Source: Methanoculleus horonobensis (lineage in GTDB: Archaea; Halobacteriota; Methanomicrobia; Methanomicrobiales; Methanoculleaceae). From it: 64,000 bases of DNA. Where the stretch lies: assembly GCF_001602375.1 (NCBI RefSeq), contig NZ_BCNY01000013.1, positions 186,001 to 250,000 on the forward strand. Direction: 5' to 3'. This document shows positions 40,517-44,812 of the stretch, one piece after another. The notes beneath the pieces are model-generated. The model did no database searches. It was not told the origin of the DNA and was given only the letters and a program-made list of their open reading frames with translations. A program made the translations under genes and the position numbers. Within the stretch, counting starts at the first letter, position 1; each line of letters starts with the position of its first letter.

Positions 40517-41215
40517 ATGAGTGCAGCAGAACAGGCGGCATCGAAGAGGAACGCAGGCTACCGCGCGGCAGAAGAGGTCGAGGACGGGATGGTCGTCGGG
40601 CTCGGCACCGGGTCGACCGTCTTCTTCGCGATGGAGCGGCTGGGCGAGCGGATAGCAGAGGACGGGCTCACCATCGTCGGCGTCCCGACCTCTTACCAGG
40701 CGGCCATCCGGGCACGCCGGTACGGCATTCCCCTCGCGAGCCTCGACGAGCACCCCGAACTCGATATCGCCATCGACGGGGCCGACCAGATCGATCCCGC
40801 TCTCCACCTGATCAAGGGGCGCGGTGCCGCGCTTCTGCGGGAGAAGTGCGTCTGCGACGCGGCGCGGAGGGCGCTCATCGTCGTTGATGGGACAAAGATG
40901 GTGGAGACCCTGAACGCGCCCGTGCCGGTAGAAGTGCTCCCGTTCGCCGTGGAGGCGGTCTCCCGCCGGCTTGCGGCGCTCGGTGCCGACCCGGTTCTCC
41001 GGGAAGGGGTGAAGAAAGACGGCCCGGTCGTAACCGACAACGGCAACTTCATCGTCGACTGCAATTTCGGGACGATCGCAGACCCCGGGCGCCTGGAGGC
41101 GGAGATCGCCTCGATCCCCGGTGCGCTGGAGTGCGGCCTGTTCACGGCCTACACGGAAAAAATAACGGTTATTATCGGTGAGGAGAAGGGTTGCAGCGTC
41201 ATATCACTGCGTTGA
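40517..41215 (+). CDS. rpiA: Ribose-5-phosphate isomerase A
   Basis: 232 residues. GLGTGST (28-34), AIDGADQIDP and KGRGAALLREK are the phosphate-binding and catalytic segments of RpiA; the Lys in VREGVKKDGPVVTDNGN is also conserved. It interconverts ribose 5-phosphate and ribulose 5-phosphate. A good GGAG lies shortly before the ATG. The 3' end overlaps the convergent regulator gene by 12 bases. Confidence 0.94.
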   Translation: MSAAEQAASKRNAGYRAAEEVEDGMVVGLGTGSTVFFAMERLGERIAEDGLTIVGVPTSYQAAIRARRYGIPLASLDEHPELDIAIDGADQIDPALHLIKGRGAALLREKCVCDAARRALIVVDGTKMVETLNAPVPVEVLPFAVEAVSRRLAALGADPVLREGVKKDGPVVTDNGNFIVDCNFGTIADPGRLEAEIASIPGALECGLFTAYTEKITVIIGEEKGCSVISLR

Positions 41216-41584
41216 GATGCATTCCCGCATCTTCTGGATGAGGTCTAACTGATGCCGGGCTTCCTTCTTCTTTTCTTTCTCGATTGTATCCATGATCTCC
41301 GTTATTGAGCGCGAGAGCGTGTAGATCTTCACCGGCCTTCCCTTGCTCTCCGACTTGCTCTCGCGGGTATCGATCCAGTCGCATTCTTTAAGGTAGCGCA
41401 TGGCGATGCTGACTTCGGGCTGGCGGAGATCGGTGCCGCGCTCGATGTCCCGGGATGTCGCCTCCTCGGTATTTGCCAGGTATACGAGCACTTTGGAGAC
41501 GTTTCTTTTGATGCCGATGCCCATCAAGAGCTCGGCGAGTTCTTCGTCGCGTGGCGTAAAATACCGTACCTTATCGGACCTCAT
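41204..41584 (-). CDS. Winged-helix transcription regulator
   Basis: 126 residues. A DNA-binding winged helix can be read at about 20-85 (NVSKVLVYLANTEEATSRDI, ERGTDLRQPEVSIAMRYL as recognition helix, then the wing ESKSKGRPVKIYTL). The C-terminal 40 residues form a charged helix (MDTIEKEKKKEARHQLDLIQ) likely to mediate dimerisation. It has no ligand-binding domain. GGTGA lies just before the ATG, and a minus-strand TATA-like AATATTTTTATAG is near 41622-41634. Targets unknown. The type is common in Methanomicrobiales. Confidence 0.8.
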   Translation of the reverse strand: MRSDKVRYFTPRDEELAELLMGIGIKRNVSKVLVYLANTEEATSRDIERGTDLRQPEVSIAMRYLKECDWIDTRESKSESKGRPVKIYTLSRSITEIMDTIEKEKKKEARHQLDLIQKMRECISTQ

Positions 41585-41742
41585 CCATTCACCATCAGAT
41601 AGTTATCTAGTGTTTTAAATCTAACTATAAAAATATTATTATTTCAATGGGAGATCTGGCGATTGTATCTGTTTAAAGTGAATGAATGAACCATCAAACC
41701 TTCGAGAACAATCTTTTATCCACCGGATCGCGCTTCCGCACG

Positions 41743-41940
41743 CGGCAGGAGGGTGCCCTCCGGAGAAGAGTGATGGCGATCGAAAGGACGGGGAAGTCCG
41801 AAAACGGCCAGCCGTGCCATCGGTCTGGGAGACTGTGGTTGCCCGGCTCCGCCGGAGATTCGAAACGGCCCTTATGGAAAACCAACGGCCCAATGGCCCT
41901 TATGGGTTGGGGAAAAAGAGAGAAGGATTATCAGACGGGT
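41743..41940 (+). ncRNA. Candidate structured RNA between regulator and TBP genes
   Basis: Part of a gap of more than 350 bases. A TATA-like CTTTTATCC (41713-41721) would start a transcript near 41743. From there I can fold GGAGGG-TG-CCCTCC (41748-41761); an outer stem GATGGC (41772-41777) with GCCATC (41816-41821) that encloses two hairpins, GGAC-GGGGAA-GTCC (41786-41799) and ACGGC-CA-GCCGT (41804-41815); then CCGGC-TCC-GCCGG (41843-41855). The enclosed pair makes a three-way junction. It does not match RNase P, SRP or tRNA as far as I can see. It would run into the 3' end of the TBP gene on the opposite strand. Confidence 0.25.
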
Positions 41941-41941
41941 T

Positions 41942-42505
41942 TCAGATGAGCCCGAGACTGGAAAGTTCGGAGAGGATCCGCCGTACCGCACGCTGCGCAT
42001 CCTCGGGCACCTTGCCGCCCGTGATGATCAGTTTGCCGGACCCGAAGAGGAGGACGACCACCTTGGGGTCATCGAGCCGGTACACGAGCCCGGGGAACTG
42101 CTCGGGTTCGTACTCGATCTTGTCCAGGTTGAAGCCCACGGCGATCTTATTGAGGTTGATTGGCGTCCCGAGGTCTGCGGATGTGACGATGTTCTGAATC
42201 TTATACTCCGGGTTCTCGGGGATGTCGATGTCGAGCGCCCGCAGCTGGTCGGCGAGGATATCCAGGCCGCGCGAGAGGCTGTCGATGCTCTTTGCGCCCG
42301 TCAGGACGACCTTGCCGGAACCGAAGACGAGCGCGGCGATCTTCGGGTCCTGCATCCGGAGAACGACGCCGGGGAACCGCTTCTTATTGTATTCCGCGTC
42401 CTTAAGCCGGGACGCAAGAGAGGGTAGATCAAGAGACTCCGTCACTTTCGCGGAAGCGACGATATTTTCTATCTTGAGGGACTCCTCTGGTCTGTGCTCA
42501 TTCAT
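41942..42505 (-). CDS. tbp: TATA-box-binding protein
   Basis: 187 residues made of two direct repeats of about 90 residues (8-96 and 99-187), each with the pattern NIVxSA...FPGxVxRxxDPKxxxLxFGSGKxxxTG. This saddle binds the TATA box and recruits TFB and RNA polymerase. There is no acidic C-terminal tail. It has its own TATA box (CTTTATATACC at 42527-42538) within the 42-base gap after the acetyl-CoA synthetase gene, about 27 bases before the ATG, so the message is probably leaderless. Other TBP paralogues may exist elsewhere in the genome. Confidence 0.97.
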   Translation of the reverse strand: MNEHRPEESLKIENIVASAKVTESLDLPSLASRLKDAEYNKKRFPGVVLRMQDPKIAALVFGSGKVVLTGAKSIDSLSRGLDILADQLRALDIDIPENPEYKIQNIVTSADLGTPINLNKIAVGFNLDKIEYEPEQFPGLVYRLDDPKVVVLLFGSGKLIITGGKVPEDAQRAVRRILSELSSLGLI

Positions 42506-42528
42506 ATATATAGCATGCTTAAAAAAGG

Positions 42529-42536
42529 TATATAAA
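42529..42536 (-). promoter_or_regulatory. TATA box of the TBP gene
   Basis: TTTATATA on the minus strand, a near-perfect archaeal TATA box positioned about 27 bases before the start codon. Confidence 0.7.
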
Positions 42537-42547
42537 GAGTTGGTTTT

Positions 42548-44446
42548 CTACTCTTCCAATGTCGAGATATCACCGGGGTCCATACCCAGCTCCTGTGCTT
42601 TTAAGACCCGGCGCATGATCTTGCCGCTCCGGGTCTTCGGGAGCGAATCGACGAACTCAATCTCGGACGGTATGGCGATGGGACCGAGTGTCATCCTGAC
42701 ATGGTAGACGAGATCGTTTCTCAGCTTCTCACCGGGCTCCCGGCCGTTTCTGAGGATGACGAAGGCTTTGATGGTGTTCCCCTTCAGGGCGTCGGGTTTC
42801 CCGATGACCGCGGCCTCCGCCACGGCCTCATGGGAGACAAGCGCGCTCTCGACCTCGGCCGTCCCGATGTTGTGCCCGGCGACGACGATCAGGTCGTCGG
42901 ATCGCCCGATCACCATGATGTAGCCGTCCTTGTCCTTCACCGCGAGGTCGGCCGCAGTGTAGCATCCCGGGACGGTGTTCCAGTACTTGCGGTATCGGTC
43001 GTCATCGTTCCAGATCGTCCGCATCATCGACGGCCAGGGCTCCCTGACGACCAGGAGGCCGCCCGTCCCCGGCGGGCACGGGTTGCCCGCCATATCGACG
43101 ACGTCCGCGACGACGCCCGGGATCGGTTTTCCCGCAAACCCGGGGCGCATCGGCTCGCCGATCATCGTGGTCACCATATGCATCCCGGTCTCGGTCTGCC
43201 ACCAGGTGTCCACGATCGGGCACCGGTCTTTGCCGATGGTGCGGTAGAACCACTCGAACGCCTCGGGGTTGAGCGGCTCGCCGACCGACCCGAGGACGCG
43301 GAGCGACGAGAGGTTGTAGCGGTCCGGCCACTCTTCACCCACCCGCATGAACATCCGGATGGCGGTCGGGGCGGTGTAGAAGATGGTGACGCCGTACTCC
43401 TCGATGAGGTTCCAGTAGGTGCCCGGGTCCGGGTAGTCCGGAGTTGTCTCGGCGATGAGGCAGGTTGCGCCGTTCAGGAGCGGGCCGTAGACGCCGTAAC
43501 TGTGGCCGGTGATCCAGCCGGGATCGGCAGTGCACCAGTAGATATCGTTGTCCTTGACGTCGAAGACGTGGCGGGTGGTGTAGTAGGTTCCGACCATGTA
43601 GCCGCCGCAGGTGTGGACGATGCCCTTCGGGGATCCGGTGGTGCCGCTCGTGTACAGGATGAAGAGCGGGTCTTCCGCATCCATCGGTTCGGCCGGGCAC
43701 TCCCGCTCGACGCCCTCCGTCAGGTCGTAGTAGTCCACCTCCATCTCGGGATGGAGTTCGACGGGCTTGTCGAGATCCCGCCGGAGAATGACGATCCGCT
43801 CGACGGAGGGCGCGTTGACGACCGCCTCCTCGACGATGTTCTTGAGCGGGATTGCCTTGCCCCGCCGGTAGGTGACGTCGGCGGTGATGACCACCTTAGC
43901 ATCGGTGCCCGTGATGCGCTGGTTGAGCGCGCTGACGCCGAACCCGCCGAAGACGACCGTGTGGATCGCTCCTATCCGGGCGCAGGCGAGCATGGCGACG
44001 ATCTGTTCGGGCACCACCGGCATGTAGATGCAGACCCGGTCGCCCTTCCCGACTCCGAGACGCTTCAGGCCGTTTGCGAACCGGCAGACGGCCTGGAAGA
44101 GCTGGCGGTAGGTGAAGATCCGCTCTTCCTCCTCGGTCTCTCCCCGCCACATGATCGCGACCTTGTTGCGCCGCTGGTTGTGGACGTGGCGGTCCAGGCA
44201 GTTGTGGGTGATGTTGAGTTTGCCGTTCAGGAACCACCTGGCGTAGGGATAGTTCCACTCCTTCACCCGATCCCAGGGCTGGAACCACTCGAGTTCTCTG
44301 GCGACGGTGTCCCAGAACCCGTCGGGGTCTGAAAGGAACTCCCGGTAGGCCTGGTTGTAGTCCCCGACCCAGGACTGCTCCCTGCAGTGGGCTTCGGGGG
44401 TATAGTACTTCGCCTCCTCGAGTTTGACATCAAAATTTTCCGCCAT
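42548..44446 (-). CDS. acsA: Acetyl-CoA synthetase (AMP-forming)
   Basis: 632 residues from the ATG at 44446, which has GAGGT six bases upstream; an in-frame Met seven codons earlier is less likely. YTSGTTGSPKG is the phosphate-binding loop, DTWWQTETGMH the adenine/acetate region, and Lys609 in KTRSGKIMRR the catalytic lysine of the second half-reaction. It converts acetate, ATP and CoA to acetyl-CoA for assimilation. A 22-bp palindrome lies 15 bases upstream of the start. The TBP gene follows after 42 bases with its own promoter. Confidence 0.94.
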   Translation of the reverse strand: MAENFDVKLEEAKYYTPEAHCREQSWVGDYNQAYREFLSDPDGFWDTVARELEWFQPWDRVKEWNYPYARWFLNGKLNITHNCLDRHVHNQRRNKVAIMWRGETEEEERIFTYRQLFQAVCRFANGLKRLGVGKGDRVCIYMPVVPEQIVAMLACARIGAIHTVVFGGFGVSALNQRITGTDAKVVITADVTYRRGKAIPLKNIVEEAVVNAPSVERIVILRRDLDKPVELHPEMEVDYYDLTEGVERECPAEPMDAEDPLFILYTSGTTGSPKGIVHTCGGYMVGTYYTTRHVFDVKDNDIYWCTADPGWITGHSYGVYGPLLNGATCLIAETTPDYPDPGTYWNLIEEYGVTIFYTAPTAIRMFMRVGEEWPDRYNLSSLRVLGSVGEPLNPEAFEWFYRTIGKDRCPIVDTWWQTETGMHMVTTMIGEPMRPGFAGKPIPGVVADVVDMAGNPCPPGTGGLLVVREPWPSMMRTIWNDDDRYRKYWNTVPGCYTAADLAVKDKDGYIMVIGRSDDLIVVAGHNIGTAEVESALVSHEAVAEAAVIGKPDALKGNTIKAFVILRNGREPGEKLRNDLVYHVRMTLGPIAIPSEIEFVDSLPKTRSGKIMRRVLKAQELGMDPGDISTLEE

Positions 44447-44460
44447 CCGTATACCTCGAT

Positions 44461-44482
44461 TATACATTATTAATAATGTATA
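44461..44482. promoter_or_regulatory. 22-bp perfect palindrome upstream of acsA
   Basis: Two half-sites of TATACATTATT and its complement meet with no spacer. It lies 15-36 bases upstream of the acsA ATG, where the TATA box and transcription start are expected, so it can serve as both promoter element and operator. It is the only long perfect palindrome of AT-rich type I see in the window. Confidence 0.6.
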
Positions 44483-44812
44483 TTATATCAACATTCTGGT
44501 TGAGGGGACGGATTCGCCTGAGGGTAAGCGGCAGGGAACGGTTGCCGAAACCGCACTGGAATGGCCGCGTCTGCGCCGGAGCATGTGGCGCCCGCGCCTA
44601 TACTGGGGAATCGAAACCCGGGAGGGCCGGGCCGGCGGGCAGAATTGAGGTTTTGCCGGGGACGGGCGCCGCGCAACGAGAGTGTCCCCAGTATGGCCGC
44701 CGCACCACGAGAGGCCGCCGGAAGATCGTGAAATCGTCAGCGGCGGCCTTCGATACGCAGGGATAAATGCCAACCTTTTTGCCGGGCTCTTTTCCATATT
44801 CCATTGATCGCC
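44483..44812. other. Intergenic region between acsA and the HEPN-like gene
   Basis: 330 bases. After the palindrome an AT-rich stretch to about 44500 is followed by GC-rich sequence. A TATA-like GGATAAATGCC (44761-44771) probably serves the rightward gene at 44813. A string resembling a tRNA T-arm near 44610-44630 does not fold into a tRNA. Nothing else is recognisable. Confidence 0.35.

Follow-up and report, generated by a model that had tools for sequence, protein, structure and literature searches.

A conserved palindrome ahead of acsA as the likely operator of an acetate-assimilation regulon in Methanomicrobiales

The stretch of DNA analysed here (the window, 64,000 nucleotides) belongs to a genome of 2.45 Mb in 15 contigs (G000). 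Its minus strand carries acsA (42548-44446), which encodes an AMP-forming acetate--CoA ligase of 632 amino acids scoring above the cut-off of both TIGR02188 (863 bits) and NF001208 (897 bits). Among 80 public loci, from which the window's own genome was possibly left out, the closest acsA was that of Methanoculleus sediminis (97%), and the window was accordingly placed in a Methanoculleus-like genus. Directly 3' of acsA on the same strand lies the gene of the TATA-box-binding protein (41942-42505, NF001600), whose own TATA-rich promoter begins at the acsA stop codon (within 41942-42548), and behind it, two genes downstream of acsA, that of a MreA-family regulator (41204-41584, minus strand; NF053756, 155 bits). 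The mreA promoters of the genus share a conserved block, AATAATAATATTTTTATAG, which falls in the 41204-41942 region of the window.

The acsA ATG at 44446 is preceded by a Shine-Dalgarno-like GAGGT (44453-44457, minus strand, direct reading; most relatives have a G-rich stretch there), and 14 bases separate the ATG from the palindrome at 44461-44482. Direct reading confirmed what the preliminary description had claimed for this element: TATACATTATT and AATAATGTATA are joined without spacer into a perfect 22-bp palindrome (TATACATTATTAATAATGTATA on the plus strand), within which an 18-bp core, TACATTATTAATAATGTA, occupies 44463-44480. On the basis of this reading, of the palindrome scan and of the conservation in relatives we propose it as an operator, assigned to neither strand. 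Directly upstream of it on the minus strand, the putative TATA-like TTGATATA (44484-44491) is kept in the acsA promoters of the genus. Comparison of these promoters delimited a conserved 17-bp box, ACCAGAATGTTGATATA (44484-44500, minus strand), made up of the BRE/TATA region and CCAGAATG. The box occurs once in G000 when up to 2 mismatches are allowed, and in the other genomes of the genus, too, its best copy is found at acsA, except in G029, where no acsA is listed; it is possibly the site of a second regulator. Part of the box, CCAGAATGT, also adjoins the palindrome at permease promoters of another family (G058 and G053; L114 and L247), and this neighbour of the palindrome, too, may possibly be bound by a second regulator.

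In a scan of the 64-kb window the palindrome was the sole perfect spacerless one with arms of at least 8 bases, and no further position of the window lay within 3 mismatches of it. Under a first-order Markov model of the window (100 simulations) the mean number of perfect 22-bp palindromes per 64 kb was 0.07 and the maximum 1, which means that chance would supply one in about 7 of 100 windows of this length. The element is thus uncommon, as had been stated, and 'very rare' was somewhat overstated. An origin by chance was considered and, this frequency being by itself not decisive, was ruled out by conservation; it is because the palindrome is conserved, rather than because it is rare, that we regard it as significant.

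Conservation ahead of acsA in related species had been named in the preliminary description as the test of the site. Sixty-one genomes were searched, 35 of them in the Methanoculleus-like genus, and 30 acsA loci of the genus were returned. All 30 promoters (29 of them distinct) contained the 18-bp IUPAC core at up to 3 mismatches, 23 with none, 3 with 1, 2 with 2 and 2 with 3; the reversed pattern occurred in none of them, and dinucleotide shuffles gave no match in 20 rounds (mean 0.00). These counts come from sequences that are not independent of each other; some of the promoters counted had also served to refine the core, and gene starts were placed from homology or from a pattern. The centre of the site lay 24-26 nt before the ATG in 30/30 promoters, and according to the hit tables the site is also present at acsA in four more genomes of the genus (G004, G021, G028 and G034). 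In the alignment of the acsA promoters the C and the G at positions +-7 were invariant; at +-10, 22 of the 30 had A/T, 4 had C/G with both arms changed together, and 4 were asymmetric. A second in-frame ATG sits within the palindrome. It is the less likely start of acsA, since in the relatives the spacing between the centre of the site and the ATG corresponding to 44446 shifts by one base.

Across the order the recurrent site reads roughly ATTNTACATKATTAATMATGTANAAT, with the consensus TACATKATTAATMATGTA, and 38 chosen sites aligned on their centres gave roughly ATT-N-TACATKATT|AATMATGTA-N-AAT (one row, the por site of G060, stands in the wrong register; the G038 row is that of the AceTr gene described below). 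In this alignment TATA-like stretches were found about 16-22 bp upstream of the site centre in many promoters of acs and of the acd-type genes described below. TATA-like stretches upstream of the site are TTTATATA in L124 and TATTTA or TATATA in acd-type promoters. The acs promoters of the Methanocalculus type have the TATA-like stretch further upstream, and some of those of Methanogenium have none that is obvious. The usual distance from TATA to the transcription start is 25-27 bp. With this spacing, transcription of acsA is predicted to start near 44461, at the far edge of the palindrome, which fits an operator placed between the TATA-like element and the predicted start rather than a TATA box.

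The palindrome had earlier been taken for the TATA element itself. Its high AT content and its nearness to the start codon would agree with this, and in the por promoters of the genus the TATA-like TTTATAT overlaps its left arm. As a merely symmetric AT-rich element for TBP it would, however, be expected neither to have a TATA-like stretch of its own upstream, TTGATATA at acsA, nor to keep an invariant C and G at +-7. The control promoters also speak against this reading: at 3 mismatches the site was found in 0/29 mreA promoters (one of 30 was left out of the count), 0/29 tbp promoters and 0/8 Lrp promoters, and at 4 mismatches in 1 mreA promoter, 6/29 tbp promoters and 0/8 Lrp promoters. We consider the TATA reading highly improbable. 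The proposed exclusion of TBP by a bound repressor fares differently from one promoter to another. At acsA a block of RNA polymerase or TFB is likelier, because the palindrome spans the region from the TATA-like element to the predicted start; at the por promoters of the genus, given the overlap, exclusion of TBP is possible. Sites with 4 mismatches are not regarded as specific, because 6/29 tbp promoters match at that level too.

A role of the palindrome as an RNA hairpin in the mRNA leader was also weighed. The matched changes at +-10 would look alike for a hairpin, and the sites of the acs paralog described below lie far upstream, some perhaps within a long leader. The predicted fold, however, was no better than that of shuffled sequences (-6.6 kcal/mol, z -0.83), and the predicted start of acsA would leave most of the palindrome untranscribed, which makes the hairpin a very remote explanation. 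Among six loci searched with Rfam nothing exceeded the threshold; a single miRNA match below the threshold, at the palindromes of the acs paralog, was taken as chance, and there was none near the acsA site.

The 61 genomes were searched with the 18-bp core and then with WACATKATTAATMATGTW, and among the matches listed the site preceded a small set of target genes. G000 has seven sites at up to 3 mismatches (the reversed control gave three): one at acsA, three upstream of an acs paralog, one 20 nt before porG and two unassigned ones. Two matches with 2 mismatches, in G013 and on contig 11 of G056, lie inside reading frames and were taken as chance; the one in G013 is in a sequence common to G011 and G029. 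Of 80 acs loci fetched by the acs protein alone, 58 matched the site at up to 3 mismatches in the 320 nt ahead of the gene, and the reversed pattern gave 0. The 22/80 without a match under these limits include two bacterial loci and one that is cut off 24 nt ahead of the gene. With the upstream sequence restricted to 120 nt the count was 53/79 (one of the 80 was too short), against 0 for the reversed pattern and a mean of 0.25 for shuffled ones.

In the acs paralogs about 160-260 nt with GC-rich possible stem-loops lie between the upstream palindromes and the ATG (L061:2346-2672, L071, L073, L125 and others), and in L061 a gene for a membrane pyrophosphatase (Pfam H_PPase) lies upstream of the paralog. 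Some paralogs have no palindrome (L127, L129, L133 and L134, from G039, G052, G046 and G041, respectively); the upstream region of L128 is very similar to that of L127. A gene that runs divergently from the L127-type acs begins shortly upstream of it. By eye its start looks HTH-like, and in the one protein scanned, that of L127, Pfam found PAS domains; the gap between the two genes contains TGCACTGCATA-like repeats. Judged from this arrangement, which in some families takes the place of the palindrome at one acs-permease operon, the L127-type acs would be under a different, locally encoded regulation.

The pyruvate synthase genes (por, Pfam POR) also carry the site. Within the genus it was present in 2/30 por promoters at 2, 28/30 at 3 and 30/30 at 4 mismatches, and in other genera of the order in 4/20, 6/20 and 14/20, respectively, with no match of the reversed pattern in either group; outside the genus these sites are often weak (14/20 beyond 3 mismatches, 6/20 beyond 4). 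Outside the order 0/20 por promoters had it at 3 mismatches and one (L339) at 4. In a family outside the order (f14; L337, L340, L341 and L345) the por upstream regions share a common block, ACATGTAAAATCATTAA, the last bases of which differ in L341, and ATGTAAAAT in this block resembles the right half of the operator.

A gene for an MFS permease comes after the acs paralog in many genomes, and lone MFS permeases of the monocarboxylate type had the site in 3/8 cases (G048, G058 and G053); the remaining 5/8 (L245, L246, L248, L249 and L251) had none, their best match within 250 nt having at least 6 mismatches. The permease of G048 scored above the cut-off of the L-lactate MFS transporter model NF049980 and below that of the oxalate/formate models. 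There the site overlaps the first codons of the longest permease frame, and a later start was assumed. The gene of an acetate uptake transporter in G038 (NF038013, 279 bits, cut-off 50; Pfam Gpr1_Fun34_YaaH, AceTr) has the site 88 nt upstream. Single sites were seen at L111:3108 (G036), before genes reading like Mrp antiporter subunits, and at L385:2484 (G122), before the gene of a proton-antiporter/hydrogenase-type membrane subunit (Pfam Proton_antipo_M); these antiporter-type genes may belong to the regulon as suppliers of energy, or the matches may be due to chance.

In the genus of G056 the site is found at a different enzyme. A protein search of G056, the sole member of its genus tested, gave no close Acs (best match 34%). 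A site with 1 mismatch precedes there a gene whose product has the Pfam domains ATP-grasp_5, CoA_binding_2, Succ_CoA_lig and Ligase_CoA_2, which we take to be the make-up of an ADP-forming acetyl-CoA synthetase (acd-type). Its best acetate-specific NCBIfam match was TIGR02717, and since the score (484 bits) was below the cut-off of 567, acetate is only the presumed substrate. Of 25 genomes of this genus 24 had the site at up to 2 mismatches, and the reversed control gave hits in 10/25 of these AT-rich genomes; such matches alone therefore say little, and only the sites before the acd-type gene were counted. The acd-type gene was present in 19/24 loci, one per genome, with a 1-mismatch site at a distance of 65-81 nt from its start and a TATA-like stretch upstream of the site; five of the 24 were without the gene, one of them being only 1,622 bases long. 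Three genomes (G117, G118 and G132) have a further site some 90 nt ahead of the gene of a formate/nitrite-family (FNT) channel (PF01226 in each of them); a divergent gene of the MoeA type, assigned by Pfam in G117 only, flanks this site on the opposite side and leaves its target ambiguous. Judged by the genes that follow it, the site tracks function and not any one gene.

The MreA-family regulator (41204-41584) offers itself as the binder, which would tie acsA to the role of MreA in acetate metabolism: its gene is two genes away from acsA, 59/61 genomes of the order contain the protein above the cut-off, and deletion of mreA, which encodes a TrmB-family protein, in Methanosarcina acetivorans is reported to lower the expression of ack and pta on acetate (PMC12918732). 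In the G056 genus, however, MreA exceeded the cut-off in 0/25 genomes (weak matches below the threshold were seen in 14), yet 19 keep the acd-type site. A genus can thus have the acd-type site and no MreA above the cut-off; on this ground MreA is probably not the binder, and we give the idea little credence. The mreA promoters are also without the site at 3 mismatches, an own-promoter site being common and not obligatory. So are the 20 por promoters outside the order, which would count against MreA provided that their genomes encode it. For MreA itself no binding motif is known (PMC4158304). An Lrp/AsnC domain is present in 60/61 genomes and is thus not discriminating; the Lrp gene sits between cdc6-like and aminotransferase-like genes (by eye), and the 8 Lrp loci examined had no site at up to 4 mismatches. 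Since neither the Lrp gene nor mreA is preceded by the site, there is no autoregulated candidate. An HTH protein encoded beside acs in G048 gave weak HTH_28/TiaS matches.

Two other known archaeal systems resemble the arrangement in part. At the malE promoter of Thermococcales, TrmB binds a palindrome in the core promoter of an operon for carbon uptake and is released by the substrate, but its motif, TACT-N3-AGTA at BRE/TATA, is a different one and belongs to other organisms and genes (PMC4158304). Ss-LrpB of Sulfolobus solfataricus binds as dimers to short palindromes, one or several per promoter, and its regulon (porDAB and permeases) recalls the present target set, which includes por and permeases (PMC4046817). 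Of the Ss-LrpB-type targets, por and an OFA-type permease, por has the site here; of the lone permeases, which are putative counterparts, 3/8 have it, and the one scanned scored above the cut-off of the L-lactate model and below the oxalate/formate models. The consensus of Ss-LrpB is TTGCAAAATTTGCAA as against TACATKATTAATMATGTA here, acs is not among its named targets, and Ss-LrpB adjoins its targets, binds its own promoter and activates (PMC4046817). Its activation of porDAB and permease genes would favour an activator, and not a repressor, on the palindrome too; we regard this as unlikely, although less so than MreA as the binder, since many promoters of acs and of acd-type genes have the site downstream of a TATA-like stretch and ahead of the predicted start. 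Archaeal repressors usually sit between TATA and the start. Among the open-access literature matches listed there was no report of this operator or regulon.

We consider it likely, then, that a homodimeric repressor uses the palindrome as its operator and governs an acetate-assimilation regulon of Methanomicrobiales. The earlier proposal of a dimeric repressor site stands in so far as a symmetric regulator site, conserved and recurring at linked genes, is very probable; repression itself is the presumed mode of control. Of the generic features of an archaeal repressor site, symmetry is present; the geometry at acsA and the acd-type genes would be consistent, given the predicted starts, and the spacing differs among families. 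From the site, its symmetry, its conservation and the downstream genes, all read in the sequences, we infer binding by a dimer, repression and a signal, as well as the positions of TATA and start. The uptake arm of the regulon would comprise the AceTr transporter, the monocarboxylate-type MFS permease and perhaps the FNT channel, and the activation arm AMP-forming Acs, or the ADP-forming-type synthetase in the G056 genus; pyruvate synthase would be a further member. A dimer on the acsA palindrome would stop RNA polymerase or TFB from forming or opening the initiation complex, and repression would be lifted when the cell needs C2 units, the signal presumably being the acetate, acetyl-CoA or pyruvate status.

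For hydrogenotrophic Methanomicrobiales acetate is chiefly a source of carbon, and no acetate-assimilation regulator of the order was named among the open-access literature matches listed. We suggest, with considerably more reserve than for the operator itself, that in the whole of Methanomicrobiales an undescribed regulator, which may represent an uncharacterised family, responds to C2 status and governs the uptake and activation of acetate as well as the synthesis of pyruvate. It would act through a single operator that moved among non-homologous genes (from Acs to the ADP-forming synthetase, and from the MFS permease to AceTr to the FNT channel) as lineages swapped enzymes and transporters. 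The short, defined palindrome is a direct bait for its regulator. If the site has indeed remained with the function through the replacement of enzyme and transporter by unrelated proteins, this would clearly exemplify regulation that is kept over gene identity.
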